Positions 7,895-23,971 of a stretch of 64,000 nt of DNA are shown one piece after another. The position numbers and the translations under genes are program-made. The notes beneath the pieces are model-generated. The model made no database searches. It was not told the DNA's origin and saw nothing but the letters and a program-made list of their open reading frames with translations. The DNA is taken from the NCBI RefSeq assembly GCF_000711295.1, contig NZ_JOMJ01000004.1:186001-250000 (forward strand), read 5' to 3'. The first letter of the stretch is position 1, and the number at the start of each line of letters is the position of its first letter. This DNA comes from Desulfohalovibrio reitneri (GTDB lineage: Bacteria; Desulfobacterota; Desulfovibrionia; Desulfovibrionales; Desulfovibrionaceae).

Positions 7895-8227
7895 CTACAG
7901 GATGCCCTCTTCCCCGGTGCGGATGCGCACGGCGCTGGCCACGTCCTGGACCATGATCACGCCGTCGCCCTCCTTGCCGGTGCGTGCGCCGGACTTGATG
8001 GCCTCCACCACCTCGTCCGCCTTGTCGTCGTGGATGCCCACCTCCATGCGGACCTTCTTCAGGAGGTTCACCTCCATGACCACGCCGCGGTAGGTCTCCG
8101 TGAAGCCCTTCTGCCTGCCCGAACCAAGGACGTTGGTCACGGACATGGAGTAGACTCCCTTGGCGTAGAGCGCCTGCTTCACCGGGTTGAGCATTTCCGG
8201 CCTGATGTACGCAATGACGAGTTTCAT
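7895..8227 (-). CDS. glnB: PII nitrogen regulatory protein
   Basis: Protein of 110 residues aligning end to end with PII signal proteins (SGRQKGFTETYRG in the T-loop, GKEGDGVIMV and RIRTGEE in the ligand-binding core). PII senses 2-oxoglutarate and ATP/ADP and here most likely controls the ammonium channel encoded just upstream. The residue corresponding to Tyr51, the uridylylation site of enteric GlnB, is methionine, so control by that modification is unlikely; Tyr46 is kept. The ATG has an AAGGGAG site. The gene is the second of the amt-PII operon. Whether it is best called glnB or glnK cannot be decided from sequence. Confidence 0.9.
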   Translation of the reverse strand: MKLVIAYIRPEMLNPVKQALYAKGVYSMSVTNVLGSGRQKGFTETYRGVVMEVNLLKKVRMEVGIHDDKADEVVEAIKSGARTGKEGDGVIMVQDVASAVRIRTGEEGIL

Positions 8228-8253
8228 GATGACTCCCTTTGTCTTGTGGGCGG

Positions 8254-9639
8254 TTACTCGGTGCGGAAGATCTGGAACCCGGCGTAGGACTCGGAGCCAT
8301 GCTCCACGATGTCCAGTCCGGCCATCTCTTCCTGTTCGGACACGCGCAGGCCGAAGATCGCCTTGATGATGGAGAAGGCGATGAAGCCGAGGCCGAAGGC
8401 CCACACGAAGACGGCGGCCACGCCCACGATCTGGGTGATGGTCTGGCCGATGCCGCCGCCGTATAAGAGCCCGCCCGCTCCGCCGTTGAGGCCGGGAACG
8501 GTGAACAGGCCGGTGGCGATGGTGCCCCAGGCGCCGCAGGTGCCGTGCACGGAGACCGCGCCGACCGGGTCGTCCACCTTGAGCACCTTGTCGATGAACT
8601 CGATGGACAGGACCACCAGCAGGCCGGCGATGAGGCCGATGACGATGGAGCCGAAGGGGGAGACGGTGTAACAACCCGCGGTGATGCCCACCAGTCCGGC
8701 AAGCGCGCCGTTCATGGTCATGGACATATCAGGCTTGCCGTAGCGAATCCAGGATGTGGCCATGGCTCCGATGACTCCGGCGCCGGCGGCCAGGGAGGTG
8801 TTCATGGCGATGAGGCCGATGGTGTTGTCCGCGGTGGTGGTGGAACCGGCGTTGAAGCCGAACCAGCCGAACCACAGGATGAACACGCCCAGCGCGCCCA
8901 GGGGGATGTTGTGGCCGGGGATGGCGTTGGCCTGGCCGTCGGGGCCGTACTTGCCGAGGCGCGGTCCCAGGACCATGGCGCCCGCCAGGGCCAGCCAGCC
9001 GCCGCAGGAGTGGACCACGGTGGAACCGGCGAAGTCCATGAAGCCCATGCTCTCCAGCCAGCCCGCGGATTCGGCGCCGTTGAGGCTGCCCCAGGCCCAG
9101 TGGCCGGAGATGGGATAGATGAGGCCGGTGACAACGATGGAGATGAGGATGTAGGAGCTGAACTTGGTGCGCTCGGCGATGCCGCCGGAGACGATGGTGG
9201 CGGCGGTGGCCGCGAACACGCTCTGGAAGAACCAGAAGGTGTAGTCGAACCCGGCCAGGGTGTCGTAATCCAGCCCCAGGTTGGAGAGGGCGAAGCCGGA
9301 GCCGCCGATGAAGCCGCCCCCGGCGTCGATGCCGAACATCAGGGCGAAGCCGAAGAGGAAGAAGGTGATCTGTCCCACCCCGAAGTCGAGGAAGTTCTTC
9401 ATGATGATGTTGCCCGCGCTTTTGGCGCGGGTGAAGCCCGCCTCGACGCAGGCGAAGCCCGCCTGCATGAACATGACCAGGATGCCCGCGATGAGCGTCC
9501 AGAGGATGTTGGCGTTGCCCTGGGTGAGAAAGTCCTCGGCGTGCGCCTGTTCGGGAAGCATGGTGAAGACGCCCGCCAAAGCGGCGGCCGCCAGAAGCGG
9601 CCTTGCCGCGCCTTTGCCGATGATGCGTGAGAAGATCAT
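8254..9639 (-). CDS. amt: Ammonium transporter Amt
   Basis: Protein of 461 residues. An N-terminal signal peptide (hydrophobic stretch ending LPEQAHA) precedes the eleven or so membrane helices of an Amt channel in the inner membrane. The channel twin-histidine regions are present in STVVHSCGGW and VSVHGTCGAWG, and the FDYTFWFFQS segment carries the conserved Asp-proximal motif. The frame extends upstream to 9780, but TGGAGG sits before the chosen ATG and a sigma54-type promoter lies within that extension. It is followed by the PII gene after 26 bases, the usual partner that blocks the channel. Confidence 0.93.
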   Translation of the reverse strand: MIFSRIIGKGAARPLLAAAALAGVFTMLPEQAHAEDFLTQGNANILWTLIAGILVMFMQAGFACVEAGFTRAKSAGNIIMKNFLDFGVGQITFFLFGFALMFGIDAGGGFIGGSGFALSNLGLDYDTLAGFDYTFWFFQSVFAATAATIVSGGIAERTKFSSYILISIVVTGLIYPISGHWAWGSLNGAESAGWLESMGFMDFAGSTVVHSCGGWLALAGAMVLGPRLGKYGPDGQANAIPGHNIPLGALGVFILWFGWFGFNAGSTTTADNTIGLIAMNTSLAAGAGVIGAMATSWIRYGKPDMSMTMNGALAGLVGITAGCYTVSPFGSIVIGLIAGLLVVLSIEFIDKVLKVDDPVGAVSVHGTCGAWGTIATGLFTVPGLNGGAGGLLYGGGIGQTITQIVGVAAVFVWAFGLGFIAFSIIKAIFGLRVSEQEEMAGLDIVEHGSESYAGFQIFRTE

Positions 9640-9693
9640 TTCGAACCTCCAGTTGCTCGTTGGATCGGACCACAGCCTCAGCACTTTCCCTTG

Positions 9694-9709
9694 AGCAAGG
9701 AGCGGGCCA
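9694..9709 (-). promoter_or_regulatory. Sigma54-type (-24/-12) promoter of the amt-PII operon
   Basis: On the minus strand the sequence TGGCCCG-N4-TTGCT matches the RpoN consensus with GG and GC exactly ten bases apart. Transcription should start near 9684, about 45 bases before the amt start codon. This suggests nitrogen control through an NtrC-like activator. Confidence 0.8.
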
Positions 9710-9774
9710 GACGCGTAAAAGGCCGGAATGAATGGATATGGACGAATGGAAATGAGAAACAGCATCACAAAAAT

Positions 9775-9787
9775 GTGCATTTTGCAC
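9775..9787. promoter_or_regulatory. Palindrome, candidate activator site
   Basis: A perfect inverted repeat GTGCA-TTT-TGCAC lies about 95 bases upstream of the predicted sigma54 start, the usual distance for an enhancer-binding protein. It loosely resembles the NtrC half-site TGCACCA. Function is inferred from position only. Confidence 0.45.
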
Positions 9788-9938
9788 TTCTGTTAATGTG
9801 GCATGATTGGCAATTTTGCGTAATTGTATACTTGCAACCGCAGGAAGGCGGGTGCTTGCATGCTTCGGTCCAAAATTGTAATATCGACGTTCGGGGCCTC
9901 GGTCTCGCCGCCCGTGTGGGCGGTAACGAAAAAAACGC

Positions 9939-9967
9939 TTGACAGGCTCGGCGAGGCGGGGATACCC
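9939..9967 (+). promoter_or_regulatory. Candidate promoter of the aromatic amino acid operon
   Basis: A perfect TTGACA (9939-9944) is followed 16 bases later by a weak -10 (GATACC). If used, the start lies almost at the leader ATG. A better -10 (TATACT, 9827-9832) lies further upstream but without a clear -35. Which one is used is undecided. Confidence 0.4.
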
Positions 9968-9976
9968 CTTTTCATC

Positions 9977-10087
9977 ATGAGTTCCCAAAGCCGCGTTCCT
10001 TCCTTCCTTTCTTTCGCCACGTACCTGTTTTGGTACTGGTTTTTTTATTTTGGAAGCGCCCGCGGCACGGGGAACGGTAGCGTGTAG
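9977..10087 (+). CDS. Leader peptide rich in Phe, Tyr and Trp (attenuation)
   Basis: A 36-codon open frame in which residues 16-25 read YLFWYWFFYF: four Phe, three Tyr and two Trp in ten codons (10022-10051). It ends at a TAG (10085-10087), 30 bases before a strong terminator and 127 bases before the first gene of an operon that makes exactly these three amino acids. Ribosome stalling at any of these codons would report shortage of the matching charged tRNA. The ATG at 9977 has only a distant GAGGCGGGG site. An in-frame ATG at 9860, with a GGAAGGCGGG site eight bases upstream, would give a 75-residue version with the same end. Confidence 0.8.
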   Translation: MSSQSRVPSFLSFATYLFWYWFFYFGSARGTGNGSV

Positions 10088-10130
10088 GCAGTAGCCTAAC
10101 CACCAAAACCACCCAAGGGGCCGCGGGCGC
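10056..10130 (+). promoter_or_regulatory. Antiterminator pairing of the aromatic operon leader
   Basis: The eleven bases at 10056-10066, just after the last aromatic codon of the leader peptide, are an exact reverse complement of 10120-10130. The latter are most of the left arm of the terminator. Pairing of the two would prevent the terminator from forming, as in classical ribosome-mediated attenuation. Confidence 0.75.
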
Positions 10131-10151
10131 AAGCCGGCGGCCCCTTTTTTT
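10117..10151 (+). terminator. Attenuator terminator of the aromatic operon
   Basis: An eight-pair GC stem (GGGGCCGC with GCGGCCCC), one mismatch, three more pairs and a GCAA loop span 10117-10144 and are followed by seven T. It is a strong intrinsic terminator placed between the leader peptide and the first structural gene, so it must be read through for the operon to be expressed. Confidence 0.9.
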
Positions 10152-10213
10152 GGGCCCGACGGTTCGCGGCTTGCCTGGGCGGTCTCGGTGGGTGCTAAAA
10201 AGGAGCATCTGGC

Positions 10214-11035
10214 ATGGACACGGGCAGCATCCACATCGGCAAGGCCATCCGCCTGGAACGAATCTTCAATCGAAAATCGGGCAGAGCCATCGTCGTGCCC
10301 ATGGACCACGGCGTCACCGTCGGCCCCATCTACGGTCTGGTGGACCTTAGGGCGACGGTCAACGCGGTGGTCGAAGGCGGGGCCAACGCGGTGCTCATGC
10401 AAAAAGGCCTCGTCCGATGCGGGCACCGCGGCTCGGGAAAAGACATCGGACTCATCTGCCACCTCTCCGCCTCCACCTCCCTCTCCCCAAGACCCAACGA
10501 AAAACGCCTCGTCGGCACCGTGGAAGACGCCATCCAGCTCGGCGCCGACGCCATTAGCGTGCACGTCAACCTGGCCGACGAGGCCGAGGCCTCCATGCTG
10601 GAGGACCTGGGCCGGGTCACCTCCACCGCCTCTCGCTGGGGCATCCCGGTGCTGGCCATGATGTACGCCCGGGGCCCGCACATCGAAAATCCCTACGATC
10701 CGGAGATCGTGGCCCACTGCGCCCGCGCCGGGGTGGAGCTGGGCGCGGACGTCATCAAGGTGGTCTACACCGGCGACGTGGATTCCTTCGCCCGCGTCTG
10801 CGAGTCCTGCTGCGTGCCGGTGCTCATCGCGGGCGGCGACAAGCTGGACGACACACGCGACCTGGTGCAGATGGCCCACGACTCGGTGCTGGCCGGTGGC
10901 AAGGGGTTGTCCATCGGTCGCAACATTTTCCAGGCCGACGACCCCTCCCGGCTGGTGCGCGCCTTAAAGGGCGTGGTGCACGAAGATTGGGAAGTGGAAC
11001 GGGCCATGGACTTTTTGGGCGCGGGGGAGAAGTAG
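10214..11035 (+). CDS. 2-amino-3,7-dideoxy-D-threo-hept-6-ulosonate (ADTH) synthase
   Basis: Protein of 273 residues of the class I aldolase-like family, related to archaeal AroA' enzymes. Motifs: VVPMDHGVT near residue 30, GANAVLMQKG, DAISVHVNLAD, MMYARGPH and the lysine in VIKVVYTGD expected to form the Schiff base, then GGKGLSIGRNIF. It condenses a deoxy-hexulose phosphate with aspartate semialdehyde, the first step of the DAHP-independent route to dehydroquinate. The next gene supplies the second step, which supports the assignment over fructose-bisphosphate aldolase. It is the first gene of the operon, behind the attenuator. Its ribosome site is AAAAAGGAG, ten or so bases before the ATG. 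Confidence 0.9.
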   Translation: MDTGSIHIGKAIRLERIFNRKSGRAIVVPMDHGVTVGPIYGLVDLRATVNAVVEGGANAVLMQKGLVRCGHRGSGKDIGLICHLSASTSLSPRPNEKRLVGTVEDAIQLGADAISVHVNLADEAEASMLEDLGRVTSTASRWGIPVLAMMYARGPHIENPYDPEIVAHCARAGVELGADVIKVVYTGDVDSFARVCESCCVPVLIAGGDKLDDTRDLVQMAHDSVLAGGKGLSIGRNIFQADDPSRLVRALKGVVHEDWEVERAMDFLGAGEK

Positions 11036-11037
11036 CC

Positions 11038-12024
11038 GTGGCTTCCCTTCTTTTCATGAGCGACCCCTTCGACAAGGGCGACGTGACCCAGGCCCTGGAG
11101 GCCGGGGCGGAAGGACTGCTGGTCCCGGCAGTGGCCGTGGACGAGGCCGCCTCCCTGTCCCGCACCCCGGTGGAGTCCCTGGACGGCGTGGAGCGCGTGG
11201 CCCTTCAGTCCAAGGCGGACGAGGAGCGGGCCGCCGAGGCCCTGGCCGCGGGCGGAACCGTGCTGCTGGAGCGCGGCTGGGAGATCATCCCGGTGGAGAA
11301 TCTGCTGGCCGTGGGCGAGGGGACGCTCTACGCCGCCTGCGAGTCCGCCGAGCGCGCCCGGCTGGCCGCCGAGGTGCTGGAGCGCGGCGTGGACGGGGTG
11401 GTCCTTGAGGGAAACGTCCTGGACGACCTCCGCGCAGTGCGCGAGATGCTGCACGCCGGAGCCTTGGGGGTGGAGCTTCTGCCCGCCCGGGTCACGGCCA
11501 TCAAGCCCTCGGGCATGGGCCACCGCGTCTGCGTGGACACCCTCTCCCGCCTGGATCGCGGGGCGGGGCTGCTTACGGGCAATTCCTCGGGATTCACATT
11601 TTTGGTGCATGGCGAGACCGAGTCCAATCCCTACGTCGCCTCGCGTCCTTTCCGGGTCAACGCCGGGGCGGTGCACGCCTACGTCTCCCTGCCCGGCGAC
11701 CGCACCAAGTACCTGGAAGAACTGGGCGCGGGCGACGAAGTGCTGGTGGTGGGCCACGACGGCGCCACCCGCCCGGCCGTGGTGGGCCGGAGCAAGGTGG
11801 AGCAGCGGCCCATGCTGCTCATCGAGGCCGAGGTGCTCTCCGACAGCGGCCGCGCGCAGGGGACGGTCTTTTTGCAGAACGCCGAAACCATCCGGCTGGT
11901 GCGGCCGGGCGGCGAGCCGGTGAGCGTGGTGTCGCTCAAGCCGGGCGACGAGGTGCTGGTGCGTGTGGATCAGGCTGGCAGGCATTTCGGCCGCCGGGTG
12001 GCCGAGGACATCGAGGAGAAATGA
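11038..12024 (+). CDS. 3-dehydroquinate synthase II (archaeal type)
   Basis: Protein of 328 residues resembling the archaeal MJ1249-type enzyme that deaminates and cyclises ADTH to 3-dehydroquinate. Recognisable segments: GVDGVVLEGNVLDDL, LLTGNSSGFTFLVHGET, SRPFRVNAGAVHAYV and the C-terminal AETIRLVRPGGEPVSVVSLKPGDEVLVRVD. It is unrelated to classical AroB. The GTG start two bases after the previous stop has a GGGGGAG site; an internal ATG at 11056 is less likely. Dehydroquinase, shikimate dehydrogenase, shikimate kinase and chorismate synthase are not in this window and must be encoded elsewhere. Confidence 0.9.
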   Translation: MASLLFMSDPFDKGDVTQALEAGAEGLLVPAVAVDEAASLSRTPVESLDGVERVALQSKADEERAAEALAAGGTVLLERGWEIIPVENLLAVGEGTLYAACESAERARLAAEVLERGVDGVVLEGNVLDDLRAVREMLHAGALGVELLPARVTAIKPSGMGHRVCVDTLSRLDRGAGLLTGNSSGFTFLVHGETESNPYVASRPFRVNAGAVHAYVSLPGDRTKYLEELGAGDEVLVVGHDGATRPAVVGRSKVEQRPMLLIEAEVLSDSGRAQGTVFLQNAETIRLVRPGGEPVSVVSLKPGDEVLVRVDQAGRHFGRRVAEDIEEK

Positions 12025-12025
12025 C

Positions 12026-13147
12026 ATGAGCGAAGATTCCGTTCTGGCCTCGGTGCGGCGAGAGATCGACGCCATCGACGAGGAGATCGTTGAACTGTTG
12101 AACCGGCGCGCCCAGGTCTCCAAGCGGGTGGGGCGCATCAAGTCCGGCGGCTCCGGCCAGGTGTTCAAACCCGGCCGCGAGGAGGATCTGCTGGCCAAGC
12201 TGGCCCGCTACAACCAGGGGCCCCTGCCCCTGGAGCACCTGCGAGCCGTCTATCGTGAGATCATCTCCTCCTCCCGCTCCCTGCAGCGGGCCCTGCAGGT
12301 GGTCTATCTCGGCCCGGAGGGCACCTTCTCCTATTTCGCCGGACTGTCCTACCTGGGCTCTTCCTGCGAGTACACGCCGCGCCCGCACATCGAGGGGGTC
12401 TTCGCCTCCGTGGCCTCGGGCAAGGCCGACCTGGGGGTGGTTCCCCTGGAGAATTCGCGGCAGGGCTCGGTGGGGCAGTCCCTGGACTGCTTCATGGAGT
12501 ACGACGTCACCGTCCAGGCCGAGGCCTACGCCCGCATCTCCCATGCCCTGCTGGCCAAGGACGGCGATCTTTCGGCAATCAAGCGCGTCCACTCTCACCA
12601 TCAGCCGCTGGAGCAGTGCGCGGGCTGGCTGCGGGCCAACCTGCCCCACGCCGAGCTCATCCCGGCGGACTCCACGGCCGCGGCCGCCCGCACCGTGGCC
12701 CGGGGGAGGGGCACCTCGGCCGCGGTGGGCCACGTCCGTCTGGCCGAGCTGCACGGGCTCAACGTGCTGGCCTCGCCCATCGAGGACGCCCCGGAGAACT
12801 GGACCCGCTTCTTCATCATCTCCCGCACGCCCAACCAGGCCGGGGGCAACCACAAAACTTCCATCCTCTTCACCACCCTCAACAAGCCGGGCGCGCTGGC
12901 CGGGGTGCTGGATTTGCTGGCCAGCGAGGGAATCAACCTCACCAAGCTGGAATCGCGCCCCATCCGGGGGCGGCAATGGCGCTACGCCTTCTTCGCCGAC
13001 CTCGAATGCGACCTGCTCGAGGACCGCTACGCCGGAGCGCTGGAGAAGCTGCGCTCCTGCTGCGCCTCACTGAAGCTGCTGGGGGCCTACCCCGCCGGGC
13101 CCAGGCTGGAAACCGCCCGCCAGGAGAACGGGGAGGAGGAAGAATGA
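12026..13147 (+). CDS. pheA: Chorismate mutase/prephenate dehydratase
   Basis: Bifunctional P-protein of 373 residues making phenylpyruvate from chorismate. Residues 1-90 are an AroQ-type chorismate mutase (RREIDAIDEEIVELLNRRAQVSKRVGRIK). The prephenate dehydratase follows (LGPEGTFSYFA, VPLENSRQGSVGQSLD, and the catalytic TRF in NWTRFFII). A C-terminal ACT domain (KPGALAGVLDLLASEGINLTKLESRP) should bind phenylalanine for feedback inhibition. It overlaps aroA by an ATGA, indicating translational coupling. Confidence 0.95.
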   Translation: MSEDSVLASVRREIDAIDEEIVELLNRRAQVSKRVGRIKSGGSGQVFKPGREEDLLAKLARYNQGPLPLEHLRAVYREIISSSRSLQRALQVVYLGPEGTFSYFAGLSYLGSSCEYTPRPHIEGVFASVASGKADLGVVPLENSRQGSVGQSLDCFMEYDVTVQAEAYARISHALLAKDGDLSAIKRVHSHHQPLEQCAGWLRANLPHAELIPADSTAAAARTVARGRGTSAAVGHVRLAELHGLNVLASPIEDAPENWTRFFIISRTPNQAGGNHKTSILFTTLNKPGALAGVLDLLASEGINLTKLESRPIRGRQWRYAFFADLECDLLEDRYAGALEKLRSCCASLKLLGAYPAGPRLETARQENGEEEE

Positions 13148-14481
13148 CCATCCATGTGAACGCTCCGGCCTCCAAGTCCTGCTCCCACCGGGCCTGCATC
13201 GCCGCGGCCCTGGCCAACGGCGAGAGCCGCCTGACGGGCGTGCTGCGCTCCGACGACCTGGTGGCCACCCGCCGCTGCCTTCAGGCTGGCGGGGTGGGCA
13301 TCAGCGAGGAAGAGGACGGCTCCCTGCGCGTCACCGGCCGCCCCGGCGGTTTGGTGGGCGGGCCTTCGGAGAACGAACCCGTGCTGCTCGACGTGGGCGA
13401 GTCCGGCACCACCGCCCGGCTCATGGCCGGGGTGGCCGCGGCCGGGCAGGGGACCTTCGAGATGCGCGGCGCGGGGCGCATGCACCAGCGGCCCATGGCC
13501 GGGGGGGCGGAGCCCCTGCACCGGCTGGGTTGCGATTTCGTCTGGTTGGAGAACACCGGCTACCCGCCGTTCATCATCGTCACCAAGGGGCTGTCCGGCG
13601 GCACCGTGGGCGTCTCCCTGGAGGAGTCCAGCCAGTACCTCTCCGGAGTGCTGCTGGCCGCGCCCCTGGCCTCGCGCGGGCTGGTGGTCATCGTCACCGG
13701 AAAGAAGGTGGTCTCCTGGCCCTACGTGGCCCTCACCCTGCAAGTCCTGGAGGACTTCGGGGTGGACTTCGAGGTGCAGCGAAAGGACGACGAGGGAATG
13801 TGGCGGGCCGTGCCCTGGCGGGAAGTGGAGCGGGCCGAGCCCCGCCGCACCCGCTTCTGCATGGTGCCCATGTCCTACGCCCCGCGCGACTACGCCGTGG
13901 AGGGCGACTGGTCCAACGCCTCCTACTTCCTGGCCGCCGGGGCCGTCGGTCCGGCCGTGACCGTCTCCGGCCTGCGCCGGGACTCGGTGCAGGGAGACCG
14001 GGCCATTCTGGACATCCTGCGCCGGATGGGCGCGGAGGCCGCCTGGGAGGGCGAAGACGTGACCGTTTCCCCCGGGCCGGACGGCCTGCGCGGCGCGGAC
14101 CTGGACATGGGCCACTGCCCGGACCTGGTGCCCACGGTCTCCGCCCTGGCCTGCTTCGCCAAGGGGCCGACCACCATCTCCAACGTGGCCCACCTGCGCA
14201 TCAAGGAGTCGGACAGGCTGGAGGCCTGCGCCGAGAACATCCGCCGCATGGGCTGCGGGGCGGAGGTGCTGGAGGACGGCCTGCGCGTGACCCCGGCGGC
14301 CATGCCCGCCTCCGGGGAAGTGGACCTGGCAACCTTCGACGACCACCGCCTGGCCATGTCCGCCTCGCTGTTCGAGCTGGCCGGGGTGGGGGTGCGGCTG
14401 GACAATCCCGGCTGCACCGCCAAGTCCTTCCCCGGCTTTTTCGAGGAATGGGCCAAGGTCCGCTCCGGGAGGGAGCCATGA
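13144..14481 (+). CDS. aroA: 3-phosphoshikimate 1-carboxyvinyltransferase (EPSP synthase)
   Basis: Protein of 445 residues with the EPSP synthase landmarks: APASKSCSHRACIAAAL (substrate lysine and serine), LDVGESGTTARLMAG, MHQRPMAGG, WSNASYFLAAGAV, LRIKESDRLEA and the FDDHRLAMS segment. It joins shikimate 3-phosphate and phosphoenolpyruvate on the way to chorismate. Divergence in the glycine-rich segment (GESGTTAR rather than GNAGTAMR) means it belongs to neither common textbook class by eye. It is coupled to pheA upstream and tyrA downstream by overlapping ATGA start/stop sequences. Confidence 0.94.
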   Translation: MTIHVNAPASKSCSHRACIAAALANGESRLTGVLRSDDLVATRRCLQAGGVGISEEEDGSLRVTGRPGGLVGGPSENEPVLLDVGESGTTARLMAGVAAAGQGTFEMRGAGRMHQRPMAGGAEPLHRLGCDFVWLENTGYPPFIIVTKGLSGGTVGVSLEESSQYLSGVLLAAPLASRGLVVIVTGKKVVSWPYVALTLQVLEDFGVDFEVQRKDDEGMWRAVPWREVERAEPRRTRFCMVPMSYAPRDYAVEGDWSNASYFLAAGAVGPAVTVSGLRRDSVQGDRAILDILRRMGAEAAWEGEDVTVSPGPDGLRGADLDMGHCPDLVPTVSALACFAKGPTTISNVAHLRIKESDRLEACAENIRRMGCGAEVLEDGLRVTPAAMPASGEVDLATFDDHRLAMSASLFELAGVGVRLDNPGCTAKSFPGFFEEWAKVRSGREP

Positions 14482-15240
14482 GCTTTTCCAAGGTCGTCAT
14501 CGTGGGCGCGGGCGGGGAAATGGGCTCGCTGTTCGCCTCCGTTTGCCGCGAGGCGGGCCAGGAGGTGCGCGGCCTGGAGAAGGGTTTCGAGCAAGACGAG
14601 GCGGAGGCGGCATTTACCGGGGCGGACCTGGTGTTGCTTTGCGTGCCCATCGGCTGCGTGGAGGCCGCCCTGTCCGCCGTCATCCCCCACCTGGACGGCT
14701 CCCAGATCCTGGCCGACGTCTCCTCGGTGAAGGAGAACCCCCTGCGGGCCATGCTGCGGGCCTACGGCGGCCCGGTAGCCGGCACCCATCCCCTTTTCGG
14801 CGGCAAGCTGCCCGCGCCTGAGGACAGGCGCGTGGCCGTCTGCACCGGGCGCGGCGAGGCTGCGGTGGAAGTGGTTGAGGACTGGCTGGAGAGCCTGGGC
14901 TTCATCCCCTTCCGCTGCACCGCCCGCGAACACGACGAGGCGCAGGCCCTGGTGCAGGGGCTCAATTTCGTGACCACGGTTTCCTATCTGGCCACCGTGG
15001 CCAACCATCCGGGTGTGGAGCGGTTCCTCACCCCCAGCTTCGGCCGCCGCGTGGAGGCGGCCCGCAAGATGCTGTCCTCGGACGCTTCCATGTTCGAGGC
15101 CATGTTCGAATCTAACCCAGCCAGCCAGGACGCGGTGCGACTCTTCCGCTCCTTCCTCAACGTGGCCGCGGGCGGAGACGTGGACCTGCTGGTGCAGCGC
15201 GCCCGCCGCTGGTGGTCGCGCCAAACGGACGGGGAGAGTC

Positions 15241-15260
<20 letters not shown>
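14478..15260 (+). CDS. tyrA: Prephenate dehydrogenase
   Basis: Protein of 260 residues that oxidatively decarboxylates prephenate to 4-hydroxyphenylpyruvate for tyrosine. It opens with a Rossmann nucleotide-binding motif (VVIVGAGGEMGSLFA) and has ADVSSVKENP and AGTHPLFGG, both typical of TyrA. It lacks a fused chorismate mutase or ACT domain and is shorter than many TyrA proteins, so feedback control may rest on the leader attenuator. The end overlaps trpE by 20 bases. Confidence 0.92.
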
Positions 15261-16636
<1,376 letters not shown>

Positions 16637-16653
<17 letters not shown>

Positions 16654-17230
16654 TAACTACGACTCCTTCACCTTCAATCTGGTGCAGGGCTTCCAGCAGC
16701 TCGGCCTGGACCCGGTGGTGAAGCGCAACAACGAACGCGAAATCCTGGACCTGGCCGGGTCGGAGGACCTGAACATGGTCTGCATCTCCCCCGGCCCCTC
16801 CACCCCGGAGAACGCCGGGCTGTGCCTGGCGTTCCTGGAGCGGCTGCCGCGGGAGGTGCCCGTACTGGGCGTCTGCCTGGGGCACCAGATCCTTGGACAC
16901 TTCGCGGGCGCGCCGGTGTACGTGGCCGAGCGCATCATGCACGGCAAGACCTCCGAGGTGGAGCACGACGGACGGGGCATTTTCACCGGCCTGCAAAGCC
17001 CCATGGAGGTCTGCCGCTACCACTCCCTGCTGGTGCCAGCGGAGCGGGCCGAGGGCGTCGAGATCACCGCCCGAACGGACCAGGGCGAGGTCATGGGCCT
17101 GCGCTACCTGGACCGCCCCTGGGAGGGAGTGCAGTTCCATCCCGAGTCCATCCTCACGCCGCTGGGCCAGGCCTTGCTGGCTAATTTCCCCAAGCGACTG
17201 GCCAGCGCGGCCCATGGGAGGGTGTCATGA
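16637..17230 (+). CDS. trpG: Anthranilate synthase component II (glutamine amidotransferase)
   Basis: Protein of 197 residues of the class I glutamine amidotransferases. The catalytic triad is visible: Cys80 in GVCLGHQ, and His168 and Glu170 in QFHPES. It releases ammonia from glutamine for TrpE. It is a separate subunit, not fused to TrpD as in enteric bacteria. It overlaps trpE at its start and trpD at its end (ATGA). Confidence 0.95.
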
Positions 17231-18225
17231 AGGAGATTCTGGAAACCCTGGCCAAGGGCGAGAACCTGGCACCCCTGCAGGCGGAACAGGCCTTCAGCCA
17301 CCTGCTCCACGGCAAGCTCTCCCCGGTACAGGCCGGGGCCCTGCTCATGGGCCTGCGGGCCAAGGGCGAGACCCCGGACGAGGTGGGGGCCGGAGTGCGG
17401 GCCTGCCTGCGCGAGGCCAGGAAAGTGGACGGCCTGGACAAGGTGGGACCGCGCATCGACACCTGCGGCACCGGGGGCGACTGCCGGAGCAGCTTCAACT
17501 GCTCCACGGCCGTGGCCCTGATGCTGGCTGCCATGGGCTACAAGGTGGCCAAGCACGGCAACCGCTCGGTCTCCAGTTCCTGCGGCAGCGCGGACGTTCT
17601 GGAGGCCATGGGAGTGCCCCTGGACTCCGACCCGTCCCAGGCGGCCGGGGAACTTGACCGCAACAACTTCGTCTTTCTCTTCGCTCCGGCCTACCATCCG
17701 GCCTTCAAGCACGTGGCTCCCATCCGGGCGGAGATGGGCATCCGCACCCTGTTCAATCTCATGGGGCCGCTGCTCAATCCCGCCCGGCCCACCCACCAGC
17801 TACTGGGCGTGGCCGAGCCGCGCTTCCTGCCGCTCATGGCCAGCGTGCTGGCCGACAACGGCGTGGAACGCGGTGCGGTGGTGCACGGCGCTGGCGGCTT
17901 CGACGAGCTGACGCCCTTCGGCCCCTCCACCGTGCTCTGGATCCAGGACGGCGAGGTGCGCCCCGACGTGCTGGACCCCGAGCCCTTGGGACTCGGCGGC
18001 GGGCGGCCGGACGACGTCTCCGTGATCGGTCCGGTGGAGTCCCTGGACGTGCTGCGGGAACTGCTTGCCGGGCGGGGCCATCCCACCATGGTCCGCATGC
18101 TCACTCTCAATCTGGCCGTGGCCCTGCATCTGCTGGAGGGATTCGACATGGCCACGTCCGCCGGGCTGGCGCGCGAGGCCGTGGCCTCGGGCATCGGGGC
18201 CGAGCGGTTCGGAGCGGCGGCGTGA
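17227..18225 (+). CDS. trpD: Anthranilate phosphoribosyltransferase
   Basis: Protein of 332 residues that attaches phosphoribose to anthranilate. The PRPP and metal motifs are intact: DTCGTGGDCRSSFN, KHGNRSVSSSCGSADVLEAMG, and the PAFKHVAPIRAEMGIRTLFNLMGPLLNPA stretch. Gene order TrpG, TrpD as separate proteins fits a non-enteric trp operon. Start and stop overlap the neighbours by four bases each. Confidence 0.95.
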   Translation: MKEILETLAKGENLAPLQAEQAFSHLLHGKLSPVQAGALLMGLRAKGETPDEVGAGVRACLREARKVDGLDKVGPRIDTCGTGGDCRSSFNCSTAVALMLAAMGYKVAKHGNRSVSSSCGSADVLEAMGVPLDSDPSQAAGELDRNNFVFLFAPAYHPAFKHVAPIRAEMGIRTLFNLMGPLLNPARPTHQLLGVAEPRFLPLMASVLADNGVERGAVVHGAGGFDELTPFGPSTVLWIQDGEVRPDVLDPEPLGLGGGRPDDVSVIGPVESLDVLRELLAGRGHPTMVRMLTLNLAVALHLLEGFDMATSAGLAREAVASGIGAERFGAAA

Positions 18226-19037
18226 GCGCTCTGCTGGAACGCTTCCGCCGGGCCAAGCTGGCCGAGATCGAGACATTGCGGCGGGCGGATGAGGCCGGGA
18301 CCCTGCCCGGATTCTGGGACGGCGTGCGGCCCTCCTTTTCCCGCGCGTTGACCCAATCCCCCCTTCGCCCGGCCCTCATCGCCGAGCACAAGGCGTCCTC
18401 CCCCTCGCGCGGGGTAATCCGGCCGGGCTCCAACCCGGAGGACATCGCCCGGGCCTACGCCCGCGCCGGGGCCGCCGCCCTGTCCGTGCTCACCGAGGAG
18501 GAACACTTCCAGGGTGAACTGGGCCACTTGGGCCGCTGCCGTCCCGCCGGGCTGCCCATGCTGCGCAAGGACTTCCTCTTCCATGAGCTGCAAATCCGCC
18601 GCACAGCGGCCACCCCGGCCTCGGCGCTGCTGTTCATCGCGCGCATGCTGGAAGGGCCGGAGCAGCTGGCCCGCTTTCTGGCCCTGGCCGGGGCGGCCGG
18701 GCTGGAAGGGGTGGTGGAGATCTTTGACGAGGCCGACCTGGAGACCGCCCGGGAGGCCGGGTCGCGGATCATCCAGGTCAACTGCCGCGATCTGGACACC
18801 CTGGAACTGGACCCCGGCCGCCACGAGGCGCTGCTGGACAAGGCCGGAGGCAAGTCCGGCGGCGAGGTCTGGATAGCGGCCAGCGGGGTGAACTCGCCCG
18901 GCGACATGGCCCGGCTGGCCGATGCGGGCTACGACGCCGCGCTGGTGGGCACCTCGCTCATGGCTGCGGACGATCCCGAAACCGCCGCCCGGGAACTGCT
19001 CTCGGGCGCGCGGCGGATGAACAAGGAGGAAGCGTGA
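18222..19037 (+). CDS. trpC: Indole-3-glycerol-phosphate synthase
   Basis: Protein of 271 residues, TIM barrel, that closes the indole ring from CdRP. The catalytic lysines are in IAEHKASSPSRG and LRKDFLFHELQI, and the barrel continues with LEGVVEIFDEADLE, VNCRDLDTLELD and AASGVNSPGDMARL. A GTG start overlaps the trpD stop, and the end overlaps trpF in the same way. Confidence 0.95.
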   Translation: MSALLERFRRAKLAEIETLRRADEAGTLPGFWDGVRPSFSRALTQSPLRPALIAEHKASSPSRGVIRPGSNPEDIARAYARAGAAALSVLTEEEHFQGELGHLGRCRPAGLPMLRKDFLFHELQIRRTAATPASALLFIARMLEGPEQLARFLALAGAAGLEGVVEIFDEADLETAREAGSRIIQVNCRDLDTLELDPGRHEALLDKAGGKSGGEVWIAASGVNSPGDMARLADAGYDAALVGTSLMAADDPETAARELLSGARRMNKEEA

Positions 19038-19648
19038 AACTGAAGGTATGCGGACTGACCTGCGCACAGGACGTGGGAGCCGCCGTGACCTGCGGAGCCC
19101 ATTATCTGGGCTTTATTTTCCACCCCGGTTCGCCCAGGCGCGTTGACCACGCCTTCCCGGCCACCTGCTGGACCGGAGGCTCTAAAAAGGTGGGCGTGTT
19201 CACCGGCGAGGACCCGGAGGAAGTGCGCGAGGCCATGGACCGGGGCAAGCTGGATTTGGCCCAGCTGCATGGCGGCCAGGACGCGGACTTCTGCCGGACC
19301 GTGGGCCCGGATCGGGTCATCAAGGTCTTTTGGCCGGAGAAATACGAGTCCCGCGCCGAGTTGGTGGCGGACATGGAGGCCTTCCGCGAGGCGGCCGCCT
19401 ATTATCTCTTCGATGCCGGGAGTTCCGGGGGCGGGCACGGCCGTTCCTTCTCCCGCTCCCTGCTGGCCGGGCTGCAAGTGCCCAGGCCCTTCTTCCTGGC
19501 CGGGGGCATCGCGCCGGGCTCTGTGCGCGCCGCCGCCGCCCTCGGCCCCTACGGACTGGACGCCAACTCCGGGGTGGAATCCGCCCCCGGAGTCAAGGAC
19601 ACGGACAAGCTGCGAGAGCTGGCCCAGGCCATGGGGCTGGCCGAATGA
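19034..19648 (+). CDS. trpF: Phosphoribosylanthranilate isomerase
   Basis: Protein of 204 residues carrying out the Amadori rearrangement of phosphoribosylanthranilate. The catalytic cysteine is in LKVCGLT near the N-terminus, and the general-acid aspartate in [13 protein letters not shown]. The phosphate-binding end is [10 protein letters not shown] plus [14 protein letters not shown]. It starts with GTG. It is encoded apart from trpC, unlike the enteric fusion. Confidence 0.93.
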
Positions 19649-19665
19649 CCCAAAAAGGAGAAACG

Positions 19666-20862
19666 ATGCATCCCGACGCGAGAGGCTATTACGGTCCTTA
19701 TGGGGGCCGGTTCGTTCCCGAACTGCTCATGCCGCCGCTTCTTGAGCTGGAGAAGGCGGCGCGCGACATCGTGCCCACCGAGGAGTTCCGCAAGGAGTTT
19801 GGCGACATCCTGCGCGATTTCGTGGGCCGTCCCACGCCGCTGTACCGCTGCCCGACCCTGTCCAGGGAACTCGGCTTCAATCTCTGGCTCAAGCGGGAGG
19901 ACCTGGCCCACACCGGCGCGCACAAGATCAACAACACCCTGGGCCAGGCGCTTCTGGCCAAGCACATGGGCAAGACCCGGCTCATCGCCGAGACCGGAGC
20001 GGGGCAGCACGGCGTGGCCACGGCCACGGCCGCGGCCATGACCGGGTTGTCCTGCACCGTGTACATGGGCGCGGTGGACGTCCGCCGCCAGGCGCACAAC
20101 GTCCGCCGCATGGAGCTGCTCGGGGCCAAGGTGGTGGCCGTGGAGAACGGCACACGCACCCTCAAGGACGCCATCAACGTGGCCCTGCGCGCCTGGATCG
20201 CCGAACTGGAGGACACCCACTACTGCGTGGGCTCGGTGGTCGGCCCGCACCCCTTCCCCTGGCTGGTGCGCGAGTTCCAGCAGGTCATCGGCCTGGAGGC
20301 GCGCGAGGAGTTCATGACCCGCAACATGGGCCGCCTGCCGAACGCCCTGGTGGCCTGCGTGGGCGGCGGCTCCAACGCCATGGGCCTGTTCCATGCCTTT
20401 GTGCCCGACGAAGGCGTGCGCATCATCGGCGTGGAGGCTTCCGGCTCCGGCGAGGAGGGCTGCTACCACTCCGCCACCCTGACCAAGGGCACCGCCGGGG
20501 TTTTCCAGGGCGCGCTGACCCTGTTGCTGCAGTCCGAGCAAGGGCAGATCGAACCCTCCCACTCCATCGCCCCGGGGCTGGACTACCCCGGCGTTGGACC
20601 GGAACACGCCGGGCTGCAGGCCCTTGGCCGGGCGGAGTACGCCTGCGTCAACGACGCCGCCGCCATGCGCGCTTTCAAGAAGCTCTGCCGCACCGAGGGC
20701 ATCATCCCCGCCCTGGAGTCCTCCCACGCCCTGGCCTGGGTGCTGGACAACGCGGACCAGTTCCCGGCCGGGGGCGACGTGGTGATCAACCTGTCCGGCC
20801 GTGGCGACAAGGACCTGGGCATCGTGGAAGAAGTGCTGCAAGCCGAAGAGGAGGGCAAGTAA
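19666..20862 (+). CDS. trpB: Tryptophan synthase beta chain
   Basis: Protein of 398 residues, a canonical TrpB1. It condenses indole with serine. The pyridoxal phosphate lysine is Lys87 in [14 protein letters not shown], the cofactor phosphate loop is VGGGSNAMG, and the [14 protein letters not shown] segment is intact. The frame could begin at 19645, but AAAGGAG sits just before the ATG at 19666, which also gives the usual N-terminus [12 protein letters not shown]. The stop codon overlaps the trpA start by one base. Confidence 0.95.
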
Positions 20863-21626
20863 TGTCGGTGCTGCGCGAGAAGATCGAGGCGGCCGGGGCA
20901 TCTGGCCGCAAGGCGCTCATTCCCTACTTGCCTTTCGGTTTCCCCACCCGGGAGCGCTTCTGGGCCGAGGTCGAGGGTATGGACCGTGCCGGTGCGGACG
21001 TCATCGAGATCGGCGTTCCCTTCTCCGACCCCGTGGCCGACGGGCCGGTCATCGAGCGGGCCGTGCTGCAATGCCTGGAGTGCGGCGCCTCCCTCGCCGG
21101 GCTGCTGGCCGACCTCAAGGAGCGCGAACTGTCCGCGGGCATCGTGCTCATGGGCTACATGAACCCCTTCTACCAGTATGGCTTCGAACGGCTGGCCAAG
21201 GACGCGGCCGAGGCCGGGGTGCACGGCTTCATCATCCCCGACCTGCCACTGGAGGAAGCCGAGGAAACGCGGAACATCCTGGACAAGCACGGACTGGACC
21301 TGGTGCCCCTCATCGGGCTAAACACCACCCCCGAGCGCATGCAAGCCTACGCAGAGCACGCCCGTGGCTTCGTCTACATGGTCTCGGTCATGGGAACCAC
21401 CGGGGCGCGGGAGGATCTGCCTCCGCAGGTGGAGGCCAAGCTGCGCCAGGCCAAGGAGTCCTTCGAGGCCCCCCTGGCCCTGGGCTTCGGCATCACCGGC
21501 CCCTCCCAGGTGGCCCACCTGGGCGACCTGGTGGACGCGGTGGTTTTCGGCAGCGGCCTTGTGCGCTACGTGGAGGAGGGCGACGAACCCGGCCGAGCGG
21601 CCGAGTTCCTGCGCCGTTTCATCTAG
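20862..21626 (+). CDS. trpA: Tryptophan synthase alpha chain
   Basis: Protein of 254 residues that cleaves indole-3-glycerol phosphate and channels indole to TrpB. Catalytic Glu and Asp lie in VIEIGVPFSDPVADGPVIE; the barrel end has GFGITGPSQVAHL and AVVFGSGLVRYVEE. It is the last gene of the aromatic cluster; a GC-rich hairpin follows 12 bases after its stop. Confidence 0.95.
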   Translation: MSVLREKIEAAGASGRKALIPYLPFGFPTRERFWAEVEGMDRAGADVIEIGVPFSDPVADGPVIERAVLQCLECGASLAGLLADLKERELSAGIVLMGYMNPFYQYGFERLAKDAAEAGVHGFIIPDLPLEEAEETRNILDKHGLDLVPLIGLNTTPERMQAYAEHARGFVYMVSVMGTTGAREDLPPQVEAKLRQAKESFEAPLALGFGITGPSQVAHLGDLVDAVVFGSGLVRYVEEGDEPGRAAEFLRRFI

Positions 21627-21638
21627 CTGTTGAACACC

Positions 21639-21666
21639 CGCCGGGGTTCCGCCTGGAACCCCGGCG
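21639..21666 (+). terminator. Hairpin between trpA and paaK (no T run)
   Basis: A perfect 12-pair stem with a four-base loop (arms 21639-21650 and 21655-21666) sits between the two genes. There is no T run, and the paaK ribosome site starts within ten bases. It may stabilise the 3' end of the trp message or attenuate read-through into paaK rather than end transcription. Confidence 0.5.
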
Positions 21667-21683
21667 TTCCGCGAGGAGTACGC

Positions 21684-22967
21684 ATGGGGTGCCGCTTCCT
21701 GCCCGAGTTGACCGGTGACGAGCTGGCCGATCGGCAATTGGCCGGGCTGCAATGGACCGTGGCCCACTGCCACGCCAACTCGCCATTCTACCGGGAGCGG
21801 TTCAAAGAGGCGGGCGTGGAGCCGGGCGACATAACCAGCCTGGACGACCTGCGCCGCCTGCCCGTGACCACCGCCGACCACCTCAAGGATGGCTACCCCC
21901 TCCCCCTGCTGGCCGTGGACGAATCCGAGGTCGTGCGCATCCATTCTTCCTCCGGGACCACCGGCAAGCGCAAGATTCTGGCCTACACCCAGAACGACGT
22001 GGACCTGTGGAAGGACATGATGGCCCGCTGCTACGAACTGGCCGGGTGCGACCGCCTGGACCGCGTGCAGATCTGCGTGGGCTACGGCCTGTGGACCGCC
22101 GGGGCGGGCTTTCAGCTCGGCTGCGAGCGGTTCGGGGCCATGGCCCTGCCCGTGGGGCCGGGCATGCTGGACATCCAGATCCAGCTCCTCACCGACCTCG
22201 GCGCCACCACCCTCTGTTCCACCGCCTCCATGGCACTGCTCATGGCCGAGGAAGTGGAAAAGCGCGGCCTGCGCGACAACCTGCGCCTCAAGCGCGGCAT
22301 CTTCGGCGCCGAAACCCACACCCCCAAGATGCGCGCCCGCTTCGAGGAACTCCTCGACCTGGAGCACAGCTTCGACATCGTGGGCATGACCGAACTCTAC
22401 GGCCCCGGCACCGGCCTGGAATGCCAAGCCCACGAGGGCGTCCACTACTGGGCCGACCGCTACATCCTGGAAATCCTCGACCCCGACACCCTCGAACCCG
22501 TGGAGCCGGGCGAGATCGGCGAGATGGTGGTCACCACCCTCTCCAAGGAGGCCTCCCCCCTCGTCCGCTACCGCACCCGCGACCTCACCCGCCTTCTCCC
22601 CGAGCCCTGCCCCTGCGGCCTGTCCGTGCCGCGCCACGACAAGATACTCGGCCGCTCCGACGACATGATCATCGTCCGCGGGGTCAACATCTACCCCGGC
22701 CAGATCGCCGAAATCCTCGGCGGCTTCCCCGAACTCTCCAGCGAATACCAGGTCCACCTCACCCGCGTGACCGGCAAGGACTTCATGACCGTCTCCGTGG
22801 AACGCGCCCCGGAAGCCGCCTCCGGCGGCGACGAAGCCATGGCCTCCGCCGTGGCCGCCTCCATGCAGCGCCACCTCCTGGTCTCCGCCAAAGTGGAAAT
22901 CAAAGACCCCGGCGACCTCCCCCGCACCTTCGCCAAGACCAAGCGGGTCATCGACGACCGGGGGTAG
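21684..22967 (+). CDS. paaK: Phenylacetate-CoA ligase family protein
   Basis: Protein of 427 residues of the adenylate-forming PaaK family. The AMP-binding loop is IHSSSGTTGKRKI, the second motif GMTELYGPGTGLECQAHEG, the adenylate aspartate region RYRTRDLTRL, and the C-terminal lysine-bearing end RTFAKTKRVIDDRG. It would activate an aryl acid such as phenylacetate to its CoA thioester in the cytoplasm. A CGAGGAG site precedes the ATG. It directly follows trpA, and aryl-acetate to amino acid links are known in anaerobes, but co-regulation here is only an inference. Substrate not determinable from sequence. Confidence 0.85.
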   Translation: MGCRFLPELTGDELADRQLAGLQWTVAHCHANSPFYRERFKEAGVEPGDITSLDDLRRLPVTTADHLKDGYPLPLLAVDESEVVRIHSSSGTTGKRKILAYTQNDVDLWKDMMARCYELAGCDRLDRVQICVGYGLWTAGAGFQLGCERFGAMALPVGPGMLDIQIQLLTDLGATTLCSTASMALLMAEEVEKRGLRDNLRLKRGIFGAETHTPKMRARFEELLDLEHSFDIVGMTELYGPGTGLECQAHEGVHYWADRYILEILDPDTLEPVEPGEIGEMVVTTLSKEASPLVRYRTRDLTRLLPEPCPCGLSVPRHDKILGRSDDMIIVRGVNIYPGQIAEILGGFPELSSEYQVHLTRVTGKDFMTVSVERAPEAASGGDEAMASAVAASMQRHLLVSAKVEIKDPGDLPRTFAKTKRVIDDRG

Positions 22968-23050: not shown

Positions 23051-23971
23051 AGAGCTTATCCGTAAATAACTAGACTAAACTGAACAGTTCGAGCATTCTC
23101 CTCAAAAGGCGAGGACGCATGGGAAAGCGAGTTCAATCTTGTGAAGTTTCTGATGAATTCTGGGCTATTGTCGAACCGCACATTCCTGTACCTCAACGTG
23201 ATACCACGAGGAAATACAAGCGAAAACCAGGGGGCGGTAGAAAGCCTCTCCCGCCTCGGAGAGTTTTTGAGGCCATCGTATATGTTTTGCGCACTGGGAT
23301 TCAATGGAAGGCCTTACCCAAAGAAGTGTTTGGGAGCCCAAGCTCTATCCATGCCTATTTCAGAAAGTGGGAAAAGCAAGGCTTTTTTCTGTCGCTTTGG
23401 CAAGCAGGTCTCGCTGAATATGATGAAATGATGGGGATTGCTTGGGAATGGCAAGCCGTTGACGGGGGTGCGCTTAAAGCACCTTTGGCCTGTGAGGCGG
23501 GTGGCAGGAATCCGACAGACCGGGGAAAAAAAAGGTTCCAAACGCCACATTCTTGTGGACGAGCGTGGCGTCCCGTTGTCGATCGTCGTAACAGGCGCAA
23601 ATCGACATGATGTATCCCAGTTGGAGGAATGTGTTGAAAGGCAAAGTCGTGGGCGGGCCTTTCGAGCCAGAGGTGGCAGATAACCTCTGGCTCGATGCAG
23701 GCTACACCGGCGACAACGCACGGCAAGTAATTGAGAACGCAGGGTATCTCCCCCATGTTCGGCCGCGTGGTGAAGAGATCGCAGAGAAGGAACGCAACCC
23801 TGAATTCAAGCCACGAAGGTGGGTTGTAGAAGTGAGCCTGTCTTGGCTTAATCGCTTCAGGAAGCTTCTGGTCAGGTTTGAAAAGCTGCATTCAACTCAT
23901 TTGGCATTAACCCATCTGGCGGCCGCCATCATCGCTCTGAGAAAGACAGGAATTATTTACGGATAAGTTCT
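23051..23971 (+). mobile_element. IS5-like insertion sequence (about 921 bp)
   Basis: Terminal inverted repeats AGAGCTTATCCGTAAATAA and its mirror (one mismatch) bound the element. The flanks read TA on both sides (23049-23050 and 23972-23973), consistent with a two-base TA duplication. The transposase inside is of the IS5 family (IS427-like group). It has inserted into the centre of a hairpin of a dispersed repeat; the uninterrupted second copy at 59822-59836 shows the likely empty site. The base composition is visibly lower in GC than the surroundings, which suggests recent arrival. Confidence 0.88.
23119..23966 (+). pseudogene. IS5-family transposase, frame disrupted
   Basis: Three frames are needed to read one transposase. 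The first (from MGKRVQSCEVSDEFW) contains the N-terminal domain and the first catalytic Asp region (WQAVDGG). The frame must change by +1 at a run of eight A (23526-23533) to read KKGSKRHILVDERGVPLSIVV. It must change again by +1 near 23628-23634 to read VADNLWLDAGYTGDNA and the C-terminal end through KTGIIYG. IS5 relatives often use a programmed -1 shift at an A run, but that frame gives no homologous sequence between the two breaks. I therefore read this as an inactivated transposase, or two single-base errors in the sequence. Confidence 0.8.

Follow-up and report, generated by a model that had tools for sequence, protein, structure and literature searches.

Can one short leader peptide match the expression of a single operon to the supply of three different amino acids? 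This question is raised by a locus of Desulfohalovibrio reitneri, situated in a stretch of 64,000 nucleotides (contig NZ_JOMJ01000004.1 of assembly GCF_000711295.1, positions 186,001–250,000) which is referred to as the window; positions are counted from its first nucleotide. Translation of 9977–10087, which yields MSSQSRVPSFLSFATYLFWYWFFYFGSARGTGNGSV followed by a stop, bears out the 36-codon frame with YLFWYWFFYF at residues 16–25 on which a preliminary description of this DNA had been built. The sequence gcgcccgcggc at 10056–10066, which that description had called an 11-base complement of the left terminator arm, is the exact reverse complement, base for base, of gccgcgggcgc at 10120–10130, and the seven T said to end the terminator are present at 10145–10151. 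The parts of ribosome-mediated attenuation it had seen in the letters are thus indeed there: the ORF, the run of aromatic codons, and two mutually exclusive folds (the hairpin 10115–10146 and the pairing of 10056–10066 with 10120–10130). We consider it highly probable that 9939–10151 constitutes a promoter plus a ribosome-mediated transcription attenuator which serves one operon for all three aromatic amino acids, Phe, Tyr, and Trp (Table 1).

Table 1. Features of the aromatic amino acid locus in the window
Feature	Position	Strand	Basis and remarks
Probable −35 element, TTGACA	9939..9944	+	Sequence; family-wide TTGAC spacing
Weak −10 region, gatacccc	9961..9968	+	Family composition; absent from promoter scanner list
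Leader peptide ORF	9977..10087	+	36 codons; Shine-Dalgarno not evident; conserved
Segment 1	9981..10003	+	Pairs with segment 2 as protector hairpin, aromatic codons in loop
Regulatory codons, YLFWYWFFYF	10022..10051	+	Residues 16–25 of leader ORF; kind conserved
Segment 2	10052..10075	+	Core 10056–10066 is the antiterminator arm; folds and covariation
Intrinsic terminator	10115..10151	+	Hairpin 10115–10146 with G10125.G10136 mismatch, plus T7 10145–10151; fold
Segment 3, left terminator arm	10120..10130	+	Alternative partner of 10056–10066, exact 11-base complement
ADTH synthase (2-amino-3,7-dideoxy-D-threo-hept-6-ulosonate synthase), first gene	10214..11035	+	TIGR01949, 386 bits, cut-off 299
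3-Dehydroquinate synthase II	11044..12024	+	NF002628, 449 bits, below cut-off 508; start uncertain
pheA, chorismate mutase/prephenate dehydratase	12026..13147	+	Profile search
aroA	13144..14481	+	TIGR01356
tyrA, prephenate dehydrogenase	14478..15260	+	Best matches prephenate dehydrogenase models, none above cut-off
trpE	15241..16653	+	TIGR00564, 450 bits, below cut-off 518
trpG	16637..17230	+	TIGR00566
trpD	17227..18225	+	TIGR01245
trpC	18222..19037	+	PF00218
trpF	19034..19648	+	PF00697
trpB	19645..20862	+	TIGR00263
trpA	20862..21626	+	PF00290
PaaK-like AMP-dependent CoA ligase	21630..22967	+	TIGR02155, 404 bits, below cut-off 646; start uncertain

The genes behind the leader had been named as pheA, tyrA, trpEGDCFBA, and members of the common pathway, and profile matches agree with these names. 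From the gene for ADTH synthase, the only one of its kind in this genome, to that for the CoA ligase, all lie on the same strand and adjoin or overlap; the ligase gene at the end of the block is probably cotranscribed. 3-Dehydroquinate synthase II, TyrA, TrpE, and the ligase score below the NCBIfam curated cut-off, and their names stand for the best match plus context. A PaaK-like CoA ligase closes the aromatic operon in several genera (the window, and loci L120, L126, L136, L146, and L148), and a tandem pair of ADTH-synthase genes heads it at L110, L114, L115, L122, L155, and L156. The operon of D. reitneri is flanked by what, from reading the translations, look like transposase fragments just past its end (23119–23966) and, on the minus strand at ∼7895–9780, by divergent genes resembling amtB and the gene for a P-II protein.

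How readily such an arrangement would arise by accident was judged in two ways. A complement of at least 11 bases to the terminator arm occurred in 2 of 5,000 dinucleotide shuffles of the codons following the run. A degenerate pattern for seven F/Y/W-type codons, which also admits Cys, TTG, and TAG, matched the 3.39-Mb genome 17 times, compared with 28 matches for the backward control; when the 17 were read singly, only two proved to be pure F/Y/W, the leader run itself and C3:65305, in antisense orientation inside an ORF of 504 aa. That the run came to lie beside an unrelated terminator by chance is hardly conceivable and was rejected, both on account of its rarity in the organism's own genome and because the leader is conserved at 86 of 100 loci.

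The minimum-energy structure predicted for the undisturbed leader (9977–10151; −83.1 kcal/mol, z −6.2, as low in none of 200 shuffles) consists of the protector hairpin and the terminator. Segments 1 and 2 folded by themselves (9977–10090) gave −44.1 kcal/mol (z −3.8). When the first part of the leader was withheld, 10056–10066 paired with 10120–10130 instead; precisely these positions pair in the fold of 10040–10140 (z −2.55, as low in 6 of 200 shuffles). As modeled, the segments in the window are the four of a classical attenuator, and the mechanism is very likely classical ribosome-mediated attenuation. With all three tRNAs charged, the ribosome would pass the aromatic codons and come to rest on or beyond segment 2, leaving segment 3 free to form the terminator, which would halt transcription. 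A shortage of Phe-, Tyr-, or Trp-tRNA would make the ribosome stall inside the run; segment 2 would then stay free and pair with segment 3, and the operon would be transcribed past the blocked terminator. Without any translation, segments 1 and 2 would pair and the terminator would form. The run would thereby act as an OR gate, most likely inducing the operon when any one of Phe, Tyr, and Trp runs short.

Among relatives, a hairpin followed by a T-rich tail was found by our own scan in 81 of 86 leaders (none was found for L117, L131, L149, and L150, and L137 was left out of the scan); a simple consensus terminator scanner did not list the terminator of the window. The protector pairing, clear in the window, is more variable, with the duplex of pre-run sequence and arm surpassing 95% of shuffles in 31 of 76 leaders (L206, L221, L102, and L152 left out). 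As segment 1 of the window ends ∼20 nt before the run, a ribosome stalled at the start of the run may leave it uncovered. Conservation of the GC-rich hairpin with its U tract would equally be expected if the terminator were ruled by a T-box, a riboswitch, or an RNA-binding protein and the ORF were incidental, and termination can be controlled in several ways. However, a search of 8500–11500 against Rfam revealed no T-box, riboswitch, or known leader family at threshold, and conservation extends to the frame, the run, and the placement of the arm with respect to the run, which renders control of this kind very improbable. All five Rfam matches up to E 5 lay below the family threshold; four overlapped the terminator and were set aside as terminator-like chance matches, the fifth being a weak match to twister-sister.

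The preliminary description had proposed comparing leaders upstream of ADTH-synthase genes across Desulfovibrionales, and had held that lack of conservation of the run or of the pairing would speak against it. In a sample of 100 ADTH-synthase loci, taken from the organism's own family and the order families f1 to f6 (six families), 86 carry an aromatic-run leader, and the pairing covaries, as detailed below. The 86 leaders precede 52 trp-bearing operons, 9 pheA operons without trp genes in the stretch retrieved, and 18 stand-alone ADTH-synthase genes; the other 7 lie on contigs which end too early for the presence of trp genes to be judged and were set apart. Every one of the 52 trp-bearing operons has the leader. 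The 14 loci without a recognizable leader were sorted by hand; one of them, L228, does not count as an independent miss, being the second copy of the tandem pair in operon L115. An earlier pass had found the leader at 36 of 37 bacterial loci (L031 and L002 being the same contig), the locus without it, L034, belonging to an organism outside the order. At L140, and also at L021, L026, and L029, ∼280–300 nt separate the leader stop from the ADTH-synthase gene, rather than the usual ∼100–130 nt. L113 and L123 have a similar small ORF, ending in VVWAWSDMTRK, immediately upstream of ADTH-synthase-like genes which lack an aromatic leader.

The composition of the run follows the genes it precedes. In trp-bearing operons, F and Y are encoded in 52 of 52 runs and W in 51, so that 51 contain all three, spread over 46 different runs. 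In the set of early-ending contigs, W is present in 7/7. Of the 9 operons for which the stretch revealed no trp genes, 5 encode a single W, and the stand-alone copies encode W in none of 18 (Fisher test for W, trp-bearing operons versus stand-alone copies, p = 8e-16, and versus operons without trp genes, p = 0.001; kinship among the genomes overstates both). The rule that stand-alone copies lack W is, thus, obeyed 18 times out of 18. The stricter rule, W if and only if trp genes follow, had to be discarded, as it is broken by the five operons just mentioned and by W-containing leaders outside the class. As all operons with W and without trp genes feed chorismate, sensing of Trp would still make sense for them. 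The sole trp-bearing operon without W is L206, where eight consecutive T mark a change of frame (L206:360-480); the neighboring frame reads an aromatic run like that of its relatives, which is compatible with an error of sequencing or assembly or with a real frameshift. The mix of three residues, being conserved and tracking the genes controlled, supports integrated sensing without proving it.

Selection on the pairing itself is visible in the antiterminator arm. For 80 of the 82 rows with a terminator (L206 and L221 were skipped; L221, which has no leader, had passed a mechanical filter), the 9-base arm following the run was set against the left arm of the terminator. In the 50 different arm pairs thus obtained, Watson-Crick pairs fill 345 of the 450 cells, a number which rises to 393 once G-U is included; 10,000 permutations yielded at most 328 and 381, respectively, and none reached the observed values, a certainty which kinship overstates. 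In one arm column, U-A (46 of the 80 rows) alternates with C-G (22), U-G (6), A-U (1), and five others. The mean of the best 9-mer pairing was 7.96 for the leader's own partner, falling to 7.69 when partners were swapped and to 6.45 when codons were shuffled. The residues encoded at the arm vary (ARG, ACG, ASG), which indicates conservation of the RNA and not of the peptide. Counted from the last aromatic codon, the arm starts after 5 nt in 48 of 80 rows. Within the terminator, the covarying base faces a mismatch in 46 of the 51 trp-bearing operons (G10125.G10136 in the window); in the stand-alone class, it is Watson-Crick paired there in 10 of 15 rows. A mismatch in the terminator which is gone in the antiterminator would favor read-through once the arm is free.

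The spacing of these elements fits the proposed course of events. A ribosome covers ∼12 nt ahead of its A-site codon; with a footprint of this size, a ribosome stalled in the aromatic run of the window is predicted to leave 10056–10066 free, except at the final codon or the final two, where it would overlap part of the arm. A ribosome passing on would cover 10056–10066. The stop codon follows the run after 9–13 codons in 69 of the 76 leaders counted (L206, L221, L102, L152, L213, and L214 were omitted from these counts of spacing and position), so that a ribosome which has reached it would sit on the arm or just past it. The same geometry is what lends weight to the view that the attenuator answers to only one or two amino acids, the other aromatic codons being passengers or serving to slow translation: only stalls which leave the arm free should count. 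The preliminary description had suggested that the strength of the response may differ by amino acid, depending on where in the run the ribosome stalls. All three residues are distributed along the run, and W rarely takes the last aromatic position (4 of 43 unique runs) or one at least 7 codons before the end of the run. A precedent for a partial response is AroR of Corynebacterium glutamicum, a Phe-Tyr-Phe leader which, in the available part of the report, is unresponsive to Tyr (PMC11802643), so that the presence of a codon is no proof of its being sensed. Two findings speak against passenger codons: only one of the 52 trp-bearing operons lacks W, as against all 18 stand-alone copies, and 46 different runs maintain the mix, which passengers would not be expected to do. 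A response to one or two amino acids is, on this evidence, rather unlikely, and integrated sensing of all three tRNAs is the reading we prefer.

Upstream of the leader, a common putative promoter was recognized. In 76 of the 86 leaders, the ATG is preceded by TTGAC at a distance of 35–40 nt (trp-bearing operons, 49 of 52; stand-alone copies, 18 of 18; truncated loci, 7 of 7; operons without trp genes, 2 of 9). Counted from TTGAC in these 76, position 6 is A in 93%, position 25 is T in 70% and T or A in 99%, and position 26 is A in 82%; the base just before the ATG is C or T in 99%, and Shine-Dalgarno-like motifs precede it in only 10. A consensus promoter scanner listed no σ70 promoter in 9780–10220. 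TTGAC spacing, base composition, and the rarity of Shine-Dalgarno motifs together fit a transcription start at the AUG, which in the window is expected at ∼9973–9977, at or just before the ATG. The leader mRNA of D. reitneri is, thus, predicted to be leaderless, with the ribosome probably loading directly at the AUG. This feature goes beyond the preliminary description, as do the narrowed codon sets before stand-alone first-step enzymes, which look as if they had been retuned. A start at the ATG has been measured for trpL mRNA of Sinorhizobium meliloti (PMC7298713) and for several leader peptides of Streptomyces lividans (PMC8079986), as stated in the accessible portions of both papers; for the leader described here it follows from promoter spacing only. 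In S. meliloti, the trpL peptide and RNA (peTrpL/rnTrpL) are moreover described as acting in trans (PMC7298713), and as the leader here looks leaderless too, its terminated RNA or its hydrophobic peptide might act likewise besides the role in cis. However, the peptides diverge widely between leaders outside run and arm, which argues against a conserved function of the peptide and makes a role in trans improbable.

The stand-alone ADTH-synthase paralogues possess the same promoter and attenuator scaffold as the operon leaders, and their leader copies appear narrowed, in part to a single amino acid. Their runs are Phe-only or nearly so (e.g., FFFFSFF; L103, L111, L117, L119, L127, L131, L147, L149, L150, L153, and L231), Tyr-rich (QYYYSY, PYYYY, AYYYYY; L109, L129, and L139), or composed of Phe and Tyr. 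An operon leader with all three residues occurs in the same genome together with a stand-alone Phe leader (e.g., G013, G020, and G103), a stand-alone Tyr leader (e.g., G009, G025, and G036), or a stand-alone Phe/Tyr leader (e.g., G002 and G005); the complete trio of all-three, Phe, and Tyr leaders was found in none of the 12 genomes examined. A rapidly built tree of ADTH synthases (123 rows, many branches weak) places the 12 Phe-only stand-alone rows among operon copies, where they require 2 changes (1 forced by the starred branches), and the Tyr-rich and Phe/Tyr stand-alone rows in two separate places. From this placement, genes of the operon type appear to have given rise to the stand-alone copies, the attenuator having been carried along and its codons rewritten more than once. 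It is fairly probable that the attenuator is retunable, an OR-gate scaffold which, after duplication of the first-step enzyme, was rewritten to Phe-only or Tyr-only.

The leader is not confined to the order. Elsewhere in the phylum, outside the class, it was found at 18 of 26 ADTH-synthase loci (15 of 20 plus 3 of 6), mostly with runs of F and Y and with a different arm sequence. W lies inside the run in 6 of these 18 and just after it in 3 more; a trp gene downstream was found for none of the 18, some of the stretches ending early. These loci were supplied by a search of the phylum, as a search at class level added no new order; a scan of genome contigs returned mostly archaeal relatives, which were left out of the analysis. 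For one locus from another class, L254 (genome G435), the tree places the ADTH synthase with its F/Y leader within the clade of the order; horizontal transfer of gene and attenuator together is possible.

Control by TrpR was considered as well. TrpR and TyrR are reported to be absent from proteobacterial classes other than the gamma class (PMC5343134, as far as its accessible text goes), and a TrpR-family gene was found in none of 19 genomes searched, that of D. reitneri included, with the positive controls matched in Escherichia coli and Bacillus subtilis; TrpR control was rejected for these genomes. A search of open-licence literature retrieved no paper on this leader, which may have been noticed earlier in other literature. 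By word search, aromatic, tryptophan, and leader peptide are absent from the study of metal-reducing delta-proteobacteria by Rodionov 2004, as are Desulfovibrio and aromatic from Naville and Gautheret 2010; an actinobacterial survey of 2005, in its available part, reports trp, cys, and branched-chain elements. If the proposed mechanism is true, one cis-acting switch would govern three pathway branches at once, and its specificity would have been rewritten by codon changes after gene duplication, the RNA switch remaining unchanged. The natural series of runs (all three residues, Phe and Tyr, Phe only, Tyr-rich) provides material for finding out on which codon positions the response depends, and the sulfate reducers, with no TrpR-family gene in 19 genomes, would offer a group for studying aromatic regulation.

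The premise from which the preliminary description had started, that classical attenuators sense one amino acid, was too narrow, as the leaders of ilvGMEDA and thrABC of E. coli mix codons for several end products and follow the same OR-gate logic. There, the signals are the branched-chain amino acids or Thr and Ile, whereas here they would be the aromatic ones; neither leader is known to have paralogous copies narrowed to one amino acid each. With trpL-trpEDCBA and pheL-pheA of E. coli, the system shares a leader ORF with regulatory codons, four segments, and a cognate operon. Unlike these leaders, which sense one amino acid each, it combines three in one run before one operon for three pathways, it has the antiterminator arm within the ORF, a few nucleotides past the run, and it shows no sequence match to an Rfam leader family; E. 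coli, in addition, employs TrpR and TyrR. The nearest studied case is, judging from the part of the report available, AroR of C. glutamicum, where aromatic codons likewise precede aroF, the gene for the first-step enzyme of the aromatic pathway, and where Phe is sensed and Tyr is not (PMC11802643). AroR has, in the same text, three such codons and none for Trp, a separate trpL serves the trp genes, and the enzyme is a DAHP synthase in place of the ADTH synthase found here (PMC11802643). AroF, AroG, and AroH of E. coli, as presented in the accessible part of PMC5343134, are likewise first-step isoenzymes tied to different aromatic end products, by way of feedback inhibition and TyrR/TrpR, whereas the paralogues described here differ in the codons of their attenuators. 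If these were indeed retuned, they would form an RNA-based set of first-step isoenzymes, each with a signal of its own, like AroF, AroG, and AroH without dedicated repressors.
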